From: Dehalococcoidia bacterium
GTDB taxonomy: Bacteria; Chloroflexota; Dehalococcoidia; GIF9; AB-539-J10
Direction of reading: 5' to 3'
Length of the DNA: 52,238 nucleotides
NCBI GenBank assembly: GCA_003552125.1
Contig: PUON01000009.1
Coordinates: 1-52,238 of the forward strand
Every line of letters begins with the position of its first letter. The first letter of the stretch is position 1. Below the pieces are notes generated by a model. It was not told the origin of the DNA and searched no databases. It saw only the letters and a program-made list of their open reading frames with translations. Positions 20,854 to 46,695 of the stretch are shown piece by piece. Made by a program: the position numbers and the translations under genes.

Positions 20854-20994
20854 ATGACCGTAACCGATACTGCTCTGGAGGTGCTGGTGTACCGGGTGGA
20901 AGATGGGGGTCCGGCATCAGTTGAGCCTGCGGGGAACTGGTTGGTGGACGAGCAGGGCAATGATGCACCAGTCCTATTTGGTTACGTGCGTTGA
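20854..20994 (+). CDS. Small hypothetical protein (46 aa) directly upstream of the tubulin-like gene
   Basis: Manual translation MTVTDTALEVLVYRVEDGGPASVEPAGNWLVDEQGNDAPVLFGYVR*; co-directional, fits the gap between nnrDE and the tubulin-like gene. Confidence 0.5.
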   Translation: MTVTDTALEVLVYRVEDGGPASVEPAGNWLVDEQGNDAPVLFGYVR

Positions 20995-21025
20995 CATTAG
21001 TGAAGGAGGGCATTAGAATAGCGAC

Positions 21026-22198
21026 ATGAAGCTGCTGGTTATCGGACTGGGACAATGCGGCGGACGTATCGCTGATAGGTTCGCCCGTCTGAATAAGAGA
21101 GGTCATGCACTTCGCGGGATGGATACGCTCGCCGGAGTGTTCGCGGTCAATACCGATGTTACGGACTTGAGTGGTTTGCGGACCATTAAGCCGGACTACA
21201 AGCATAGAATATTGATCGGCGCGCAGCGAACGAATGGACACGGAGTCGGCAAGATCAGCGAGCTCGGTGCTGAGATCGCGAACGAGGATGTCGACAAGAT
21301 CATCGATGCGATTCGTACGGCGTCAGGCTTCTACGAGACTGACGCGTTCCTGTTGTGCGCTGGCGCTGCCGGGGGCACTGGCTCAGGTGCCATCGCCGTG
21401 CTTACCAAGCATTTGAAGGAGCGGTACATAGGCAAGCCTGTCTACAATGTGGTGGTATTGCCGTTCCGGCAGGAGGAGAATACCGAAACCAGGACCATCT
21501 ACAACACCGCTACGTGTCTGAAGTCAACGTACCTGGTGGCGGACGCGGTCTTCCTGATCGACAATCAACGGTATGTGAAGAAGGATGCGCCAGCTGAGAA
21601 CAACCTGAACTCCATCAACGCCCGGGTGGTAGAGCCATTCTATAACGTACTGTGTGCGGGCGAGGAAACCAACAGGCGCTACGTCGGTTCCAAGACGCTT
21701 GATGCGGGTGACATCATTCAGACGCTTACGGGTTGGACGGTCATCGGTGGTGGCAGTGCGAAGCTTGATCGGCGTTTCTCATTGTTTGGCGCCAAGCGGG
21801 ACTTCCGCGAGAAGATGACCGATACCAGTCGGAGCACCCATGCTATGGACCAGGCCATCAGCGAGCTGTCAATGACGATTGATCCCAGTGATGTGGGTCG
21901 GGCGCTCTATCTGCTCACTGCTCCTTCAAAGGAGATGAGCATGGATGTGATGAAGCAATTGGGTGATAATCTGAGAAATCTCGCGCCGAACGCATTAATA
22001 CGAAGTGGCGACTACCCGCGCGATAGCAAGCAGATTGACGTCAGCGTGGTGATGTCCGAGATTCAGAACGTGCGTAAGATCACAGAGTACTTCACGAAAG
22101 CCATCGACCTCATATCGGTGATGAAAGCGAAGAAGGGTCTTGGGTATCAGACGAGACGGCTTGAAGAGTCATTCGACGATATCCCGGTACTGCTCTAG
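21026..22198 (+). CDS. Non-canonical tubulin/FtsZ-superfamily GTPase, CetZ-like
   Basis: MKLLVIGLGQCGGRIADRFARLN N-terminus; FAVNTDVTDL; tubulin signature LLCAGAAGGTGSGAIAVL; possible T7 loop TLDAGDIIQTLTG; GAAGGAGG upstream. Confidence 0.88.
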   Translation: MKLLVIGLGQCGGRIADRFARLNKRGHALRGMDTLAGVFAVNTDVTDLSGLRTIKPDYKHRILIGAQRTNGHGVGKISELGAEIANEDVDKIIDAIRTASGFYETDAFLLCAGAAGGTGSGAIAVLTKHLKERYIGKPVYNVVVLPFRQEENTETRTIYNTATCLKSTYLVADAVFLIDNQRYVKKDAPAENNLNSINARVVEPFYNVLCAGEETNRRYVGSKTLDAGDIIQTLTGWTVIGGGSAKLDRRFSLFGAKRDFREKMTDTSRSTHAMDQAISELSMTIDPSDVGRALYLLTAPSKEMSMDVMKQLGDNLRNLAPNALIRSGDYPRDSKQIDVSVVMSEIQNVRKITEYFTKAIDLISVMKAKKGLGYQTRRLEESFDDIPVLL

Positions 22199-22232
22199 CG
22201 AAACGCACACAACGATCGTATACGGGTAACAG

Positions 22233-22264
22233 AAAGGCCCTCCGGCAACAGCCGGAGGGCCTTT
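22233..22264. terminator. Bidirectional intrinsic terminator between convergent tubulin-like and coiled-coil genes
   Basis: Perfect hairpin AAAGGCCCTCCGGC-AACA-GCCGGAGGGCCTTT with A/T tails on both sides. Confidence 0.9.
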
Positions 22265-22307
22265 GCTTGTCATGAGCTATTCTCGATCACTCAGATGGCT
22301 CCTAATC

Positions 22308-22835
22308 CTAGCGGCGAGCCTTGGCGAACACGTTCCACGTCCGTTCCATCGCCTCGGCGCGTTCCTGCCGAGCCTTGGTCTCTACCTCATCACGTTTCTT
22401 CATCGCGTCAGTAACGACATCCTCATACTGTTTCTTGGATTGCGCCACCATATCTTCGTACGACTTTCGAGCCTGCGCGGAATTCTCTTCAAACGCATGC
22501 CTGGCCTTCGCAAGGCTGTCCTCCATTGTCTTCGTGGCCTGCGTAAGAGAGGCATCATGCGACTTCTTAGCGCTGCCAATAGCGTCAAGACTCTCCTTAC
22601 GGGCCTGTTCCAGTGCAGCGGCATAGTTCTTCTCCGCCTTCGCCTCCTGCTCCTTGTAGGCTCGCTCAAGTTGGCGTTGCGCCTCGATGTAGGCGACATA
22701 CGCCGCTGCCGCTCTTTGCTGAGTTTCGTCGAGCAGGTCTATAGTGGGCTCCGCAGCCTTTGCAGGCTTCTGCTCCTCCTCTACCGGCGTTTCGGGGGCT
22801 GCACTCTTCTGTTTGGTTTCCTCTTCGTTTGGCAT
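22308..22835 (-). CDS. Hendecad-repeat coiled-coil/amphipathic-helix protein (175 aa)
   Basis: Eleven in-register 11-mers, e.g. TMEDSLAKARH AFEENSAQARK SYEDMVAQSKK QYEDVVTDAMK KRDEVETKARQ. Confidence 0.85.
   Translation of the reverse strand: MPNEEETKQKSAAPETPVEEEQKPAKAAEPTIDLLDETQQRAAAAYVAYIEAQRQLERAYKEQEAKAEKNYAAALEQARKESLDAIGSAKKSHDASLTQATKTMEDSLAKARHAFEENSAQARKSYEDMVAQSKKQYEDVVTDAMKKRDEVETKARQERAEAMERTWNVFAKARR
22332..22694 (-). repeat. Eleven tandem 11-residue (33-bp) protein repeats
   Basis: Residues 48-168 of the 175-aa protein split without gaps into 11-mers AYIEAQRQLER/AYKEQEAKAEK/NYAAALEQARK/ESLDAIGSAKK/SHDASLTQATK/TMEDSLAKARH/AFEENSAQARK/SYEDMVAQSKK/QYEDVVTDAMK/KRDEVETKARQ/ERAEAMERTWN. 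Confidence 0.85.
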
Positions 22836-22919
22836 CCGTGTTCTCCTTCCGCTTCAAATCCTGACGTTGCTTGCACTGCCTATGGATAGGATGGTCTGTT
22901 CTCTCCAGAGATCTCTCCG

Positions 22920-24503
22920 TTATTCTTCTTTGTCTAGTTCATCCGGCTTGCTGAAAGGCTGCTCTTTGTCGGTTGCGTACATCTTAGCGAGGAATTGCAG
23001 TCTTGAATGAATGTCGGGACGGCTGTCACGCGGCTGCGGCTTGGAGGGCTTCGATTCTTCTGTGTCGAGGCGACTCATCGCCTCGATAAGCTGCTTTCTT
23101 GGAGGTTCAGGTTCATCCTCTCCGTGGGTTCGACGGGTCTGCTCTGCGCTGGCAGCAGTATCTTCGAACAATTTCACAGTTGCCCTTGCTACTTTGCGGG
23201 CTGCCTTTGTCGTCTCCTCGGCTTTGTCGATAGCTTCCTCCAGGATTCTGGATGACGACATCACGTTGTCACGCGCTGCCTTCACTGAGGCCTCGGTGGC
23301 TTCCCGGACAACTCGTTTGGATTCTTCAGCTGCATGTAGCGCTTCCGCGCTTGTCTCCTCGGCGCGCCTGGTGGCATCCGCGGCGAGTCGTCTCGCTTCC
23401 TCTGCTGCCTCTGCCGAGAGCCTTCCAAGCTCTTCAGCTCGATCGGACGCCTGTCCTGCCACCTTCAAGGCTTCATCCGCCAGCCTCGTTGCGGCTGCCG
23501 TCACCTCCTCGGTTCGTCTCACTGCCTCGCGTGCAGCGCGCTCAGCTTCCTCAGCGCGGCCCATTGCCTCCTGCGAGGCTCGTGTGGCGGATTCAACTGC
23601 CTCCCTGCTGGCACGTACCGATGCTTCGATTCTCGTCACTGCCTCCTGCGAGGCCTTGATCTGGCGCTCGGCTTCTCGCTGACTCAATTTGCCCGCTTCT
23701 TCGGCACGGCGGATCGCTGCCTCGAATGCGTGGCTCGACTGCTCAGTTGACGTGTTTGCAGCTGCAACTGCTTCTTCGGCGCGAGTTCTTGCTTCCTCGA
23801 ACGCCGATGATGAGAGAGCCGCGGAGTCGCTTGCGGCCTTGAAGACCTTTTCTGCCCTGGTGATAGCTCTTTCGGATGCCTTTTCGGCATCCTTGGAGGC
23901 CTTCTCCGACATCTTCGCGACGCGTTCGGCAGTGCTCTGAGCCTCGCGTGATACGCGAACTGATTCCTCAGACGCCTTGGCGGCCTGCCGCTCCTGTTCC
24001 TCGGCTGCAGCCATAGCTTCGTGCGCGGCACGGCGTGCTTCATCCGCTCGCTGTTGCGTCGAAACGGACATCTTCTCAACGCCGCTGAGAGTATTCTGAG
24101 ATGAGGCAAGAGTCTCTTGAACCGATGCAATGGCCTCATTCACAAGCCGCTCAAGGCGTTTCACGGCCTCGTCAAATGCGCGCGCACTTGATTCTGCGAC
24201 ATCGGTAGATGAGGCGAACACGCTTTCCGCCGTAGTAATTGCCTGATGCGCGCGTTCGATGGCCTCCCGGGATGCCCTGGAAGCCGCCTCACTGATGGAC
24301 TCGGCCTTCTTCGCAGCCTCCTCGGCATTACGACTCGCCTCTTCAGCCTCCTTGTGCGCTTCTCTCCCGATCTTCTCAACCCGGGAGTACGCTTGCTCGG
24401 ATGCCTTGCGCGACTGGTCGGCGGCCTGACGCGCGGCAAGATTCATCTGTTCGGCCCGCGCGACGGCCTCTTCAAAAGACGGATAGTCTTGTTCCATAGT
24501 CAT
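22920..24503 (-). CDS. Long Ala/Glu/Arg-rich helical coiled-coil protein (527 aa)
   Basis: Near-continuous A/E/R/S-rich helix with recurring motifs ASREAVESATR, ASQEAMGRAEEAERAAREAVRR, AFDEAVKRLE/AFEEARTRAEE/AFEAAIRRAEE; no TM segment seen. Confidence 0.85.
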   Translation of the reverse strand: MTMEQDYPSFEEAVARAEQMNLAARQAADQSRKASEQAYSRVEKIGREAHKEAEEASRNAEEAAKKAESISEAASRASREAIERAHQAITTAESVFASSTDVAESSARAFDEAVKRLERLVNEAIASVQETLASSQNTLSGVEKMSVSTQQRADEARRAAHEAMAAAEEQERQAAKASEESVRVSREAQSTAERVAKMSEKASKDAEKASERAITRAEKVFKAASDSAALSSSAFEEARTRAEEAVAAANTSTEQSSHAFEAAIRRAEEAGKLSQREAERQIKASQEAVTRIEASVRASREAVESATRASQEAMGRAEEAERAAREAVRRTEEVTAAATRLADEALKVAGQASDRAEELGRLSAEAAEEARRLAADATRRAEETSAEALHAAEESKRVVREATEASVKAARDNVMSSSRILEEAIDKAEETTKAARKVARATVKLFEDTAASAEQTRRTHGEDEPEPPRKQLIEAMSRLDTEESKPSKPQPRDSRPDIHSRLQFLAKMYATDKEQPFSKPDELDKEE

Positions 24504-24583
24504 CCTTCGACGTTGGGCTATGCAGCGCCCGATTGCCGTTAGGCACCCAACTCTCCAAATTGTAGTGACCGTTTCACTCTATT

Positions 24584-25411
24584 TCAACGAATCAGCGGGA
24601 GCTTTCGATTATGCAAAGCCGGCAAATGCTGCCGTATCTTCGCCATTTCCCCGAAATCAAGCGTTGCCGATATAACCTCTTCCCCGTCGCCGGAAGCCCG
24701 TGCCAGCACCCGCCCCCACGGATCGATAATAATGCTGTTTCCGTATGTGGGTATTTCACCCGCACCTATGCCGGCCTGGCCGGGAGCCACGATAAAGCAC
24801 TGGTTCTCGATGGCTCGGGCGCGAAGCAGAACCTCCCAGTGCGCCTCGCCTGTTGGAGCCGTGAAGGATGAAGGCACAAACACGAGATCGGCTCCCGCAT
24901 CTGCAAGAGCCCTGTAGAGCTCAGGGAATCTCATGTCATAGCATATCGTCAGTCCTGCCGTGAGCCCGTCCACGCATGCGGCAACAATGTCCTTCCCTGC
25001 CTGGAATTTCGCAGATTCGGTGACTGACCTGTCTCCTATGGCGATGTCGAACAGGTGAATCTTCCGGTAGCGGGCAACTAACTTGCCGTCCGGGCTGATG
25101 AGCGTGGACGTGTTGTAGGGCATCCCGCCGTCAGGATCGGCTTCATGAACACTGCCAGCCAGTATCCACACACCTCGATCAGCGGCAAGAGACATCAGTG
25201 AAACCAATGCGCTGCCGGGTAGGGGCTGTGCGATCCTGCTGAGGTCGGTTTCGCTTCCCCGGTAGTCAAATGTCTCGGGTAGTGCGATCAGCCTGGCTCC
25301 GGTATCTACAGCCTGGGTGGCCAGGGTCAGTGCCCGTTCGATATTGACGGTTTGGTTCGGCCCGCTTGCGGTCTGTGCTATTGCAACTGTAATTGGGCTG
25401 GAGTGTGTCAT
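24584..25411 (-). CDS. Carbon-nitrogen hydrolase (nitrilase superfamily, Nit1/Nit2-like)
   Basis: Catalytic E-K-C: ALPETFDYRG, ARYRKIHLFDI, GLTICYDMRFPELYRAL. Confidence 0.92.
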   Translation of the reverse strand: MTHSSPITVAIAQTASGPNQTVNIERALTLATQAVDTGARLIALPETFDYRGSETDLSRIAQPLPGSALVSLMSLAADRGVWILAGSVHEADPDGGMPYNTSTLISPDGKLVARYRKIHLFDIAIGDRSVTESAKFQAGKDIVAACVDGLTAGLTICYDMRFPELYRALADAGADLVFVPSSFTAPTGEAHWEVLLRARAIENQCFIVAPGQAGIGAGEIPTYGNSIIIDPWGRVLARASGDGEEVISATLDFGEMAKIRQHLPALHNRKLPLIR

Positions 25412-42313: not shown

Positions 42314-42808
42314 TTACTGCGGGATGTCCTTCAACTCGCTGCGCCGCTGCTTTGTGGTAGTCAATCCAGCTGAGAGACTTTCGAGCGCGTCTCGGAGAGC
42401 ACCGATGTCGGTGAAATCTCTGTAGACGCTTGCAAACCTGATGTAGGCGATATGATCAAGTCTCTCAAGTCCTTCCATCACCAGATCGCCCACAATGGTA
42501 CTGGCAATCTCAGCCTTGCCGAGTTCGTGGACCTGTTCCTCGATAGTGGTGATGAGCTTCTCGATCGATCCAATCGGTAGGGGACGTTTCTCGCATGCCT
42601 TGCGGATTCCGGCTGCCAGTTTCTCCCGGTCGTATGCTTCCCGCCTCCCATCCTTCTTCACGATGAACAGGGCGTAATTCTGTACGCGCTCTGACGTGGT
42701 GAAGCGGGCTTCGCACTCTGAGCAGACCCGCCTTCTTCGCACCTCTTCTTCGAGGCCACGAGAATCGATTACACGGGACTCAAGTGCGCCGCAGAATGGA
42801 CATTTCAC
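42314..42808 (-). CDS. nrdR: Transcriptional regulator NrdR
   Basis: MKCPFCGALESRVIDSRGLEEEVRRRRVCSECEARFTTSERV; ATP-cone; AYIRFASVYRDFTDIGALRDAL. Confidence 0.98.
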   Translation of the reverse strand: MKCPFCGALESRVIDSRGLEEEVRRRRVCSECEARFTTSERVQNYALFIVKKDGRREAYDREKLAAGIRKACEKRPLPIGSIEKLITTIEEQVHELGKAEIASTIVGDLVMEGLERLDHIAYIRFASVYRDFTDIGALRDALESLSAGLTTTKQRRSELKDIPQ

Positions 42809-42850
42809 ACGACATCATCCCCACTTCTTGTGGTGCAATACCATTCTAGC

Positions 42851-42862
42851 ACCATATATAGT
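42851..42862. promoter_or_regulatory. Candidate NrdR box upstream of nrdR-nrdJ
   Basis: ACCATATATAGT matches ACWATATATWGT at 11 of 12 positions; about 43-54 nt upstream of the nrdR start. Confidence 0.6.
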
Positions 42863-42898
42863 ATGTCACAACTGCTGTATGCGTGGGTTCAATTGAAG

Positions 42899-42930
42899 AA
42901 CGGGGGGATGGCGTACGCCATCCCCCCGTT
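42899..42930. terminator. Strong hairpin downstream of ftsZ
   Basis: Perfect inverted repeat AACGGGGGGATGGC-GTAC-GCCATCCCCCCGTT starting 11 nt past the ftsZ stop. Confidence 0.75.
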
Positions 42931-42940
42931 ACTTCGAGTT

Positions 42941-44071
42941 CTACTGCCAGGAGAGTCGATTGGCCTGAGGCGCCACCTCGGAGTGGCCGCGGAGAGCGTG
43001 ACTGAGCTGCCCTCCGGAGTGCTTCTGGCTGCGTCGCAGGAACGACGGTACGTCGAGAGAGTCGCCGCCGCCCTTCATCAGCCGCCTGAGCTCCTCGGTA
43101 TCCGGCGAGCCCTTCCCATACTGGCTTGTAAATCCGGTTGCAATAACAGTGATCTTCACCTCGCTGTCGAGCTTAGGATCGAAGACCACGCCAAAGATGA
43201 TATTGGCCCGTGGATCCACCGCTTCGCTGATGACGCTTGCAGCCTCATTGCACTCGAAGAGAGTGAGGCTCGGTCCCCCGGTGATGTTGAAGAGCACACC
43301 CTTGGCGCCGGTTACCTGTGCGTCCAGCAACGGGCTGGCGAGCGCAGCCTTGGCGGCGTCGACAGCGCGATTCTGTCCGGTGCCCCTGCCTACTGACATC
43401 CATGCGGGGCCGGCATCCTTCATGACCGACTTGATGTCCGCGAAGTCAAGGTTGATGAGCCCGGGCACGGTGACGACCTCCGAGATTGCCTGGACGCCAA
43501 GCAGGAGCGCGTCGTCAGCAAGCCGGAAGGCCGCGTCCACCGTCGTTTTGTTATCACAGAGCTGCAGAAGCCTGTCGTTCGGGATGATTATGAGCGTGTC
43601 CACCTTCTCTGTCAGGTGCAGAATTCCCTCTTCGGCAACCTCTGATCGGTGGCCCCCCTCGAACTTGAAGGGCTTGGTGACGACGCCGATGGTGAGCGCG
43701 CCCGATTCCTTGGCGGTCTGTGCTACCACGGGTATTCCGCCGGTGCCGGTGCCTCCGCCCATTCCAGCGGAGACGAAGACCATGTCAGCGCCCTCCACTA
43801 CTTCCTGGATCGTCTGTCTGCTTTCCTCGGCTGCCTTGTGGCCGGTGCGGTGATCTCCTCCGGCACCGAGGCCGCGCGTGAGTTTCTCGCCCAGCTGTAT
43901 CCTGGTCTGGGCTTCCGCCAGCGCGAGGGCCTGTGCATCCGTGTTCATTGCGACGAACTCGACGCCACGGATGCCCTCCCTGATCATGCGATTGATCGCG
44001 TTGGTGCCACCGCCCCCAATGCCGATCGCCTTGATCCTGGCCGGGGCTGGTGTGTAAGTTGTCTTAGCCAT
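42941..44071 (-). CDS. ftsZ: Cell division protein FtsZ (canonical)
   Basis: IKAIGIGGGGTNAINRMI; FVAMNTDAQAL; FVSAGMGGGTGTGGIPVVA; T7 loop NLDFADIKSVM; C-terminal peptide DVPSFLRR. Confidence 0.98.
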   Translation of the reverse strand: MAKTTYTPAPARIKAIGIGGGGTNAINRMIREGIRGVEFVAMNTDAQALALAEAQTRIQLGEKLTRGLGAGGDHRTGHKAAEESRQTIQEVVEGADMVFVSAGMGGGTGTGGIPVVAQTAKESGALTIGVVTKPFKFEGGHRSEVAEEGILHLTEKVDTLIIIPNDRLLQLCDNKTTVDAAFRLADDALLLGVQAISEVVTVPGLINLDFADIKSVMKDAGPAWMSVGRGTGQNRAVDAAKAALASPLLDAQVTGAKGVLFNITGGPSLTLFECNEAASVISEAVDPRANIIFGVVFDPKLDSEVKITVIATGFTSQYGKGSPDTEELRRLMKGGGDSLDVPSFLRRSQKHSGGQLSHALRGHSEVAPQANRLSWQ

Positions 44072-44110
44072 TCTTGCCTCCTCGTTCTCGCAACTTGTTT
44101 TCTGTGAATC

Positions 44111-45331
44111 CTAACCCCGGAAGAGCTTCCGCAGCAGTTTGCCGATGCCTCCAAACATGCCACCTCGCGTAGCCTGCCACGCGGAAGGTTCGCGGCTTCG
44201 TGCCTGCCAGAGCACGAGTCCCAGAGTGGTCGCATAGGCTGAATCCCGAAGAATATCGGTAATTCCGTACACGCCGCTACCGAGCGGAGCACCCCTCCGT
44301 AGTGGCATCTTGAGTTGATCTCTGCCCAGCTCGACCATTCCATTGAGGTTCGCGGTCCCGCCGGTGAGTACGAGGCCGCACGGGGCCAGTCGCTGATAGT
44401 CGGTTGTGGGAAGCTCAAGGAGAATGAGCTCGAACATCTCCTCGAGTCTTGAGCGGACGATCTCGCACAGCTCGCGGTACGATGCCGTATGCCCGTTCTC
44501 AATCCCGGTGAGCTCATGCTCCTTGCCGGCATCGAGGCCGGGGGTCACGTTGCCGTAGGTCTTCTTCATGCGCTCCGCCACGTGGAACGGGAGACCGAGC
44601 CCGATAGCGATGTCGCTTGTTATCTGGTAGCCGGCCACGGGGATGATCGCGGTGTGATAGATGTCGCCATCCTTGAACACGGCGATGTCAGTCGTGCCGC
44701 CGCCGAGATCTGCCATGATGATTCCGCTCTCGCGCTCCTGCGGAGTCAGTACCGCTTCGCCGCTTGCCAGTGGTTCGAGTACGAGATCGTGTACCTGCAC
44801 GCCGATGCTCCTGATAACCTTCACCAGGTTTTGCACGGAGGATACCGATGCGGTGATGATATGCGTCTCGACGTCAAGACGGGTGCCATGCATGCCGACG
44901 GGCTGCTTGACGCGTTCTTCTCCGTCGAGTGTGTAGTACCTGGGGATGGCGTGCAGCAGCTTCTTTCCCTCCGGCACAGCCACGTTCCTCGATGCAGCCA
45001 GAACTCTGTGCAGGTCGTCAGCGCGTACGAGACGGTCGGCTCTGGGGATAGCCACCACTCCCTTGTTGTTGATACTGCTGATATGCCGGCCGGTGACGCC
45101 GACGAGCACAGAGTCGACCCTCATGCCGCTGATCTTCTGTGCCTCCTGGATCGAGGCGGAGATTGCCTCTTTTGCCTCGTCCATATTGACTACGATCCCC
45201 TTGTGCATGCCATGGCTAGGCACGACGCCCACACCGAGGACTTCGATGTCGTCCTGGCTGCGAACGTTCGCCACGATGGTGGCTATCTTCGTGGTGCCTA
45301 TGTCAATTGCGGATACAATCCCTTTGGCCAT
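44111..45331 (-). CDS. ftsA: Cell division protein FtsA
   Basis: VSAIDIGTTKIATIVA; IIMADLGGGTTDIAVFKDG; LVLTGGTANLNGMVEL; C-terminal amphipathic GKLLRKLFRG. Confidence 0.97.
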   Translation of the reverse strand: MAKGIVSAIDIGTTKIATIVANVRSQDDIEVLGVGVVPSHGMHKGIVVNMDEAKEAISASIQEAQKISGMRVDSVLVGVTGRHISSINNKGVVAIPRADRLVRADDLHRVLAASRNVAVPEGKKLLHAIPRYYTLDGEERVKQPVGMHGTRLDVETHIITASVSSVQNLVKVIRSIGVQVHDLVLEPLASGEAVLTPQERESGIIMADLGGGTTDIAVFKDGDIYHTAIIPVAGYQITSDIAIGLGLPFHVAERMKKTYGNVTPGLDAGKEHELTGIENGHTASYRELCEIVRSRLEEMFELILLELPTTDYQRLAPCGLVLTGGTANLNGMVELGRDQLKMPLRRGAPLGSGVYGITDILRDSAYATTLGLVLWQARSREPSAWQATRGGMFGGIGKLLRKLFRG

Positions 45332-45376
45332 TCTTACCTCCTTAGATTGCGCCAGACGCTGAGGCGCAGGCCATGC

Positions 45377-46258
45377 CTACGCAAGACGCTCAGCGACCCT
45401 GAGCCGCGCACTGCGGCTGCGGGGATTGGAGCTACACTCCAATGCGGTAGGTCGTATGACCTTTCGTGTTGTGAGCAGAAAGGCATGTTCGGCTGCCTGC
45501 GCCCGCATGAACTGCTTCACGATGCGATCTTCCAGGGAGTGATAGCTGATCACCACCAGCCTTCCTCCTGCTTTGAGGAGGCTCACCGCCTGGTCCAGTG
45601 CCAGCTTCAGATTGTCGAGCTCCCTGTTGACCGCGATCCGAAGAGCCATGAATGTGCGGGTGGCGGGATGAATCCTGCCACGCCTGCTGCCCAGGACCTG
45701 CTGCACTATGTGCGCAAGTCGTAATGTGGACAGGATCGGCCTCTGTTGCACGATCCTGTGCGCGATTTGGCGGGAGTAACGTTCTTCTCCGAACTCCCAC
45801 AAGATGCGAGCCAACTCCTGCTCGCTGTAGCTGTTTACGATTTCCGCTGCACTCGGCCCTGTGCTGCTGTCGAATCGCATATCGAGCGGGGCCTCCCTCT
45901 GGAAGCTGAATCCCCGCTCGGCGGTGTCCAACTGCATGGAAGATATTCCAAGATCGAACAGCATCCCGTCCGTCTGTTCGAAACCCTGATCCCGGCAGAT
46001 ACGGCCAAGTTCTCCAAAATTGCCTTGTGCGAGCACCACAGATTCGCAGTATGCGGCGAGCGACTGGCGGGCGTTTTCAATTGCTTCGGGATCCGCATCT
46101 ATTGCGAGCAACCGGCCGTTGGGTTGTATCCTCTCCAGCAAAGCCCGAGCATGTCCACCTGCACCAAGCGTGCAGTCAACGTACCAGCCTCCAGGATGAG
46201 CGTTCAGTGCCTCCATAGCCTCAGTCACCATTACCGGGACGTGTGCTGTCGATGGCAT
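45377..46258 (-). CDS. rsmH: 16S rRNA (cytosine1402-N4)-methyltransferase RsmH
   Basis: HVPVMVTEAMEALNAHPGGWYVDCTLGAGGHARALLE; DGMLFDLGISSMQLDTAERGFSFQREAPLDMRFD; VVISYHSLEDRIVKQF; start trimmed to 46258. Confidence 0.97.
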   Translation of the reverse strand: MPSTAHVPVMVTEAMEALNAHPGGWYVDCTLGAGGHARALLERIQPNGRLLAIDADPEAIENARQSLAAYCESVVLAQGNFGELGRICRDQGFEQTDGMLFDLGISSMQLDTAERGFSFQREAPLDMRFDSSTGPSAAEIVNSYSEQELARILWEFGEERYSRQIAHRIVQQRPILSTLRLAHIVQQVLGSRRGRIHPATRTFMALRIAVNRELDNLKLALDQAVSLLKAGGRLVVISYHSLEDRIVKQFMRAQAAEHAFLLTTRKVIRPTALECSSNPRSRSARLRVAERLA

Positions 46259-46269
46259 TGAGTCTTTGC

Positions 46270-46695
46270 TCAACCGCCTCCCATGCTTTCCAGGATTTGT
46301 TCGGCCTGTTCCTCGGATGATGCCTTTTCCGACTTCCACAGATCCTCGTTCCAGAGCTCGATTGACTGGTTGACGCCCACGACCACGACCGACTCTCCGA
46401 TCTCTGCGTGGAGACGGAGAGGATGCGGAATGGCCATACGCCCCTGCTTGTCGAATGTGGCCGAGTAGGCAGCCCCGAATATTGCTCTATTCAGCTTCCG
46501 CTGGCTTGCAGACGTCACCGCTTTCGATGCCAGCTCGTCCGCGAGCCTCTTCCACTCACCCACAGGATAGGCCCGGACACATTTCTCGGATCCCTTCGTG
46601 AGCACGACGGAGTCGCGCAGATCCCTGCGAAACTTGGGGGGTATCGGAACTCTTCCCTTATCGTCTAACTTGTAGACATACTCGCCAAAAAACAT
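46270..46695 (-). CDS. mraZ: Transcriptional regulator MraZ
   Basis: MFFGEYVYKLDDKGRVPIPPKFRRDL; FDKQGRMAIPHPLR. Confidence 0.97.
   Translation of the reverse strand: MFFGEYVYKLDDKGRVPIPPKFRRDLRDSVVLTKGSEKCVRAYPVGEWKRLADELASKAVTSASQRKLNRAIFGAAYSATFDKQGRMAIPHPLRLHAEIGESVVVVGVNQSIELWNEDLWKSEKASSEEQAEQILESMGGG

Follow-up and report, generated by a model that had tools for sequence, protein, structure and literature searches.

A CetZ-like tubulin homologue and its coiled-coil partners: a candidate cytoskeletal module of wall-less Dehalococcoidia

Why should a bacterium with a canonical FtsZ encode a further tubulin homologue beside two coiled-coil proteins, and do these genes belong together? 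The question is raised by a 52,238-nt stretch of DNA from a Dehalococcoidia bacterium (contig PUON01000009.1, assembly GCA_003552125.1), the whole of which was analysed and is called the window here. Within it, a gene for a 390-aa tubulin-superfamily GTPase (21026..22198, + strand) converges on a pair of genes encoding the helical proteins F4 (175 aa; 22308..22835, - strand) and F2 (527 aa; 22920..24503, - strand). We found that the GTPase is of the CetZ type and that, in the clade of such proteins to which it belongs (the A clade), the large rod F2 is a near-constant partner. CetZ and the rod are kept and lost together, a pattern suggestive of a bacterial cytoskeleton that has yet to be described.

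The window protein (N-terminus MKLLVIGLGQCGGRIADRF) matched the Pfam profiles Tubulin (PF00091; 117.8 bits, 9e-34) and CetZ_C (PF21011; 58.5 bits, above the cut-off of 21.6); among 14 control genomes, Haloferax alone matched CetZ_C. Its best sequence match in the PDB was CetZ1 of Haloferax volcanii (4b46, 3.7e-42). When its AlphaFold (AF2) model (predicted local distance difference test, pLDDT, 88.5) was ranked by Foldseek, 4b46 CetZ1 came first (TMt 0.93), followed by 4b45 and 3zid, and CetZ1, CetZ2 and Methanosaeta CetZ all outranked any FtsZ. An FtsZ paralogue was ruled out, as the score against the FtsZ equivalog was 65.3 bits with a cut-off of 295.2, FtsZ_C was unmatched and the nearest solved fold was CetZ1. 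The protein is therefore CetZ-type by profile and fold. The initial annotation, which had read it as a second tubulin-superfamily GTPase besides a separate canonical ftsZ, and as CetZ-type rather than an ordinary FtsZ paralogue, was right on both counts. A phage tubulin (TubZ/PhuZ) was likewise rejected: the PhuZ profile gave E = 0.003 only, and relatives from phages or viral contigs were not found.

Residues of the GTP-binding site and of the T7 loop are retained. Across an alignment of 53 CetZ sequences (A2), G116 of the GTP-binding signature GAAGGTGSG (residues 113-121; 21362..21388, +) was invariant and G117-G121 were at least 90% conserved. The putative T7-type synergy loop LDAGD (residues 225-229; 21698..21712, +) aligns with VVDSSEI, the T7 loop of CetZ1, and its acidic residues D226 and D229 were invariant in a further alignment (A1) and at least 90% conserved in A2. 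Conservation of the signature and of both acidic residues makes head-to-tail polymerisation with GTP hydrolysis plausible. In a quick tree of 103 rows, the Dehalococcoidia CetZ groups fell outside the branch holding archaeal CetZ1 and CetZ2; with long branches joining at that point and a distant outgroup, we keep to the label CetZ-like.

The question of whether the three genes belong together was put to the genomic neighbourhoods of CetZs extracted across the class Dehalococcoidia, in which F2 and F4 were sought with profiles. The A clade comprised 36 representatives below 82% identity (Shimodaira-Hasegawa-like approximate likelihood ratio test, SH-aLRT, 100). F2 and/or F4 lay directly convergent downstream of cetZ in 34 of them, and in one more (L199) F2 was present behind an inserted gene. 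The initial annotation had made its proposal depend on conservation of the neighbourhood in relatives, and conserved it was: 35/36 in this one CetZ clade vs 0/57 rows scored for other Dehalococcoidia CetZ. The distribution of the partner on the CetZ tree requires two changes. In a representative subset, the genes flanking the module on the outside were diverse (31 upstream neighbours from 17 families, 30 downstream neighbours from 18), which indicates that conservation of the module is not general synteny; its recurrence in several families of the class, with changing outer flanks, goes beyond chance. Several loci (L105, L107, L116, L123, L135) hold F2 without F4, from which we infer that F2 is the main partner and F4 an optional one.

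The same pairing was seen in whole genomes. A profile built from 20 F2 proteins was searched in 22 genomes and scored about 250 bits or higher in 11 of them, precisely those with A-clade CetZ, each match adjoining cetZ; in the 11 genomes without A-clade CetZ, the F2 profile found nothing. This concordance is partly positional for G049, G098, G124, G135 and G146, whose clade was assigned by F2 adjacency and not by the tree, while G083 and G200 were judged by a single divergent or missing CetZ_C match. Even within one genus (f16/g74), CetZ and F2 were both held by G068, G124, G135 and G146 and both missing from G083, G189, G200 and G211. In the window's own family, genus g4 (f1/g4; three genomes searched) lacked both A-clade CetZ and F2. 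The association of cetZ with the coiled-coil genes, derived initially from adjacency only, is thus supported by adjacency together with co-presence and co-absence in 22 whole genomes, and a cytoskeletal function may be proposed for it.

As for the partners, two almost wholly helical proteins free of transmembrane (TM) segments had been described, and both were confirmed, with TM segments found in neither F2 nor F4. F2 is an alanine/glutamate-rich coiled-coil rod. A hydrophobic period near 3.58 (25/7; 3.56-3.58) was present in 61/61 F2 proteins examined, and the F2 of the window showed an autocorrelation peak at lag 25. The period of F4 is 3.66, or 11/3; both values are those of nearly straight coiled coils. 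F4, the second gene of the F2-F4 pair and usually the one directly convergent with A-clade cetZ, was modelled by AlphaFold (AF2) as a single continuous helix of 141 residues (34-174). Outside its rod, F2 carries the C-terminal motif RLQFLAKMY (residues 501-509; 22977..23003, -), which precedes an acidic tail. The general form [RK][LM]xxLxxM[YFL] occurred in 58/61 F2 proteins and never within rod bodies, and R501, L505 and M508 were invariant among 20 divergent F2 proteins. In F4, AYxAYxxA was found in 50/55 sequences and a C-terminal Wxx[YF] in 54/55; the window version of the former is AYVAYIEA (residues 45-52; 22680..22703, -), with A45, Y46 and A52 invariant in alignment A3.

Several other identities of these proteins were considered and dropped. 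A low-complexity artefact is countered by the rarity of F2-like composition (seen in 1/234 other genes with a length of 400 aa or more at the loci retrieved) and by the C-terminal motif lying outside the rod. No profile of DivIVA or another known family matched F2 or F4 significantly: the DivIVA domain left F2 unmatched, F4 scored only 16.4 bits against NCBIfam Wag31 (cut-off 260) and was rejected as a DivIVA/Wag31 relative, and no solved relatives of F4 were found. A defence system was rejected as well, as the PADLOC match to ZorA (15 bits) is a generic coiled-coil match.

What might such a module do? The host lineage offers a hint. The assembly to which the window belongs (2.09 Mb, 94% complete) has its close publicly recorded relatives among Dehalococcoidia metagenome-assembled genomes. 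Three tubulin-family genes are encoded in it: besides ftsZ and the window cetZ, there is a second cetZ, located on contig C129. The canonical ftsZ (42941-44071, -) lies next to ftsA (44111-45331, -), rsmH (45377-46339, -) and mraZ (46270-46695, -), a remnant of the division and cell wall (dcw) cluster from which the intervening mur, mraY, ftsW and ftsI genes are absent. This reduced cluster (42314-46695, -) is followed by nrdR and ribonucleotide reductase, and all peptidoglycan genes are missing there. As a wall marker we chose FtsW/RodA, since MurG (PF04101) is weaker in this respect, being matched by other glycosyltransferases. FtsW/RodA was present in 1/67 genomes with CetZ vs 134/227 without it (Fisher 4e-20); counted by family, one overlap was observed vs 6.8 expected (P 9e-4). 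MreB exceeded its cut-off in 0/16 CetZ-bearing genomes tested vs 4/4 wall-bearing relatives. Of 400 genomes sampled across the phylum, 26 had CetZ_C, and every one of these belonged to Dehalococcoidia. FtsW/RodA co-occurred with CetZ in G229 only (G229:C2:402-1445); since this gene is close to the start of a contig and is missing in the sister genome G263, it might represent binning contamination.

We favour the reading, to which we would give a probability of roughly 55%, that CetZ filaments are organised by F2 (and F4) rods into a cell-shape or cortical scaffold in these wall-less bacteria. It builds on what was observed, i.e. assignment to the family by profile and fold, conserved adjacency with joint inheritance and joint absence, the architecture of the rods, the conserved sequence motifs, and genomes without SEDS (shape, elongation, division and sporulation), MreB and SepF markers. 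According to this model, CetZ, with a presumed GTPase activity, would most likely form head-to-tail, GTP-dependent protofilaments. The F2 rod would bind the filament surface and/or the flexible C-terminal tail of CetZ, FDDIPVLL (22172..22195, +), which follows a low-confidence linker and in which I386, P387 and L389 are invariant (alignment A1). Contact might be made through the conserved C-terminal RLxxLxxMY helix of F2 or through its shaft, with F4 as an optional short rod serving as cross-linker or cap. The assembly could then support membrane and S-layer in cells devoid of peptidoglycan and MreB, and so set their shape or surface organisation.

Several observations weigh against this. Orders 10-25 of the class descend from an ancestor in which peptidoglycan was lost, in a single event (PMC10284905); the association of CetZ with the lack of a wall is therefore largely one nested observation and not a set of independent ones; moreover, some wall-less genomes have no CetZ (about 90 genomes had neither CetZ nor FtsW/RodA). 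Within the A clade, L215 has neither F2 nor F4 and L159 lacks F2. Four Dehalogenimonas-like genomes are without A-clade CetZ and F2, which suggests that some lineages can do without the module, and one genus retains an F4 homologue in a separate operon. Finally, the convergent layout of cetZ and F2-F4 is not an operon, and co-expression is not implied by it.

The main rival to the scaffold is an accessory role in division, in which FtsA would recognise an FtsZ-like peptide of CetZ and so bring it into the FtsZ ring, while F2/F4 would act as Z-ring bundlers or spacers, in a ZapA/EzrA-like role. In its favour, the CetZ tail DIPxLL resembles the C-terminal peptide of FtsZ, LDVPSFLRR in the same genome, in a similar D-[IV]-P-x-[FL]-L form. 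An [ILV]PxL-type tail was carried by 65/65 module-linked and 84/88 other Dehalococcoidia CetZ, vs a background rate inside protein bodies of about 1.5% per window of residues, and by none of four haloarchaeal plasmid CetZs, two of which have ESLF and ENLF as their last residues. A search of 12 genomes yielded no SepF, which was dropped as an adaptor, whereas FtsA is encoded in the window's genome; given these results, FtsA is a candidate reader of the tail, and one adaptor could serve both FtsZ and CetZ. However, the basic residues that follow the FtsZ peptide are absent from the CetZ tail, cetZ lies about 19 kb from ftsA/ftsZ with varying contexts elsewhere, some relatives keep FtsZ without the module, and CetZ paralogues with the same tail have other partners. 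On balance, we consider a division role unlikely, though it fares best among the alternatives.

Those paralogues also bear on a further alternative, in which CetZ filament and rods would not shape the cell but place the chromosome, an S-layer export site or a surface complex. The second CetZ of the window's genome, which belongs to another clade (the B clade), is encoded beside a TIG-domain membrane protein (G000 contig C129, L003:72-1247, -). Among B-clade loci (L079-L103), a surface protein with signal peptide, TIG domain and TM segment was directly upstream in 22/25, and the three exceptions were at or near contig ends. Pili and surface genes also occur in archaeal cetZ neighbourhoods (PMC9856176). 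Nevertheless, no recurring cargo, membrane or DNA-binding protein adjoins the window's module, and a positioning role appears quite improbable to us. Least probable of all is adjacency without interaction, i.e. convergent genes that stay side by side owing to a common terminator, to antisense regulation or to the inertia of gene order: the intergenic gaps are short and a palindrome between the genes is common to the genus, but the other genera inspected did not show that palindrome, outer flanks vary, and CetZ and F2 are jointly absent from whole genomes.

A wider proposal, somewhat short of an even chance in our estimate, extends the scaffold reading. Once peptidoglycan and MreB had been lost, some members of the class would have come to depend on a new two-part cytoskeleton of CetZ filaments ordered by a rod of 25-residue repeats, sister CetZ paralogues would use other partners such as TIG-domain surface proteins, and the system would operate in cultivated, organohalide-respiring Dehalococcoides/Dehalogenimonas-like cells. 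Since a further CetZ clade is located between gapdh and dnaX-recR genes, while the B clade is paired with TIG proteins, CetZ paralogues seem to be wired to different partners. The module itself was found in Dehalococcoides- and Dehalogenimonas-like genomes, relatives of which have been cultivated; the f16 genomes G013, G049 and G068 each had 24-27 reductive-dehalogenase matches, as in Dehalococcoides/Dehalogenimonas (names inferred).

CetZ has been called archaea-specific in recent literature (PMC9856176, PMC11621097). In our data, CetZ-type proteins occur widely across one class of bacteria, the genomes concerned lack a peptidoglycan polymerase and MreB, and one CetZ clade has a co-inherited rod. 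The window protein shares with archaeal CetZ1 and CetZ2 of H. volcanii (4b46, 4b45, 3zid) the GTPase and CetZ_C domains, a host without peptidoglycan and an ordinary FtsZ alongside. It differs in its bacterial host, in belonging, in the tree, to separate groups outside the archaeal branch, in its dedicated coiled-coil partner and in its tail (DIPxLL vs tails such as ESLF/ENLF); archaeal cetZ neighbourhoods as described in PMC9856176 also differ from the module. CetZ-like sequences of Chloroflexota-Dehalococcoidia, the same protein class as ours, received a one-sentence mention in 2023 as sparse and matching that paper's CetZ_C model (PMC9871819); in the parts of the paper that concern them, subclades, partners, tail motif and co-absence are not described. 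The paper also notes coiled-coil neighbours of archaeal tubulin-like genes in general, and of OdinTubulin, where they are reported to be genome-specific. TubZ/PhuZ, BtubA/B and OdinTubulin belong to the same superfamily and have weak sequence scores and a C-terminal domain different from that of the window CetZ. With bacterial FtsZ the protein shares the superfamily and the GTP-binding signature, and it has a similar peptide after a linker, in contrast to its location outside dcw, the unmatched FtsZ_C and the separate canonical FtsZ. F2 resembles crescentin, FilP and DivIVA as a long soluble helical rod (400-900 aa range), whereas its uniform 25-residue periodicity, unique C-terminal motif and genetic tie to a tubulin set it apart. 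An earlier description of the CetZ-F2-F4 module was not found in the open-access literature, subscription papers and preprints being outside the scope of the search. The module offers a direct hypothesis of how wall-less Dehalococcoidia hold their shape, and a defined two-protein system testable outside archaea.

Some loci showed additional arrangements. At L119-L122, L161 and L171, the F4-F2 pair is flanked by two CetZ paralogues, several of these loci lying between gapdh and dnaX genes; this arrangement is possibly ancestral. A different CetZ (L124-L131; f14, f35, f50, f64 and genus f1/g3), scoring 95-137 bits with CetZ_C, shares the archaeal CetZ branch, and a separate transfer from archaea is possible. 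In many genomes (L079-L092, e.g. L088), a lone gene of about 455 aa resembling a terminase large subunit lies downstream of and convergent to B-clade cetZ, with other phage genes not obvious nearby. In genus g4 (L224-L232), the F4 homologue is in an operon with a small helix-turn-helix (MerR-like) gene and a gene for a protein of about 355 aa (N-terminus LGGREFKRVKNGLDEAQV), the latter with a faint, non-significant likeness to DivIVA (12-14 bits).

Lastly, the non-coding parts of the module were inspected. A promoter, TTGACA-N17-TAGAAT (20991..21019, +; consensus match 11/12), precedes cetZ, and its position is retained in several genera of the window's family. Only 6 nt separate the end of its -10 box from the ATG, so the transcript is likely to be near-leaderless. 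The initial annotation had listed a 46-aa open reading frame (20854..20994, +) ahead of cetZ. It probably is not a gene and was dropped from the module: sister genomes have no counterpart, and the element conserved there is the promoter, which its 3' end overlaps. The shared bidirectional terminator proposed between the convergent genes fared better; a perfect palindrome (22233..22264; 14 bp with a 4-nt loop; -33.4 kcal/mol, z -5.7) was confirmed and is likely to act in this way; sister genomes within the genus have it too. The F2-F4 pair has a candidate promoter of its own, TTGAAA-N17-TACAAT (24559..24587, -; consensus match 10/12).

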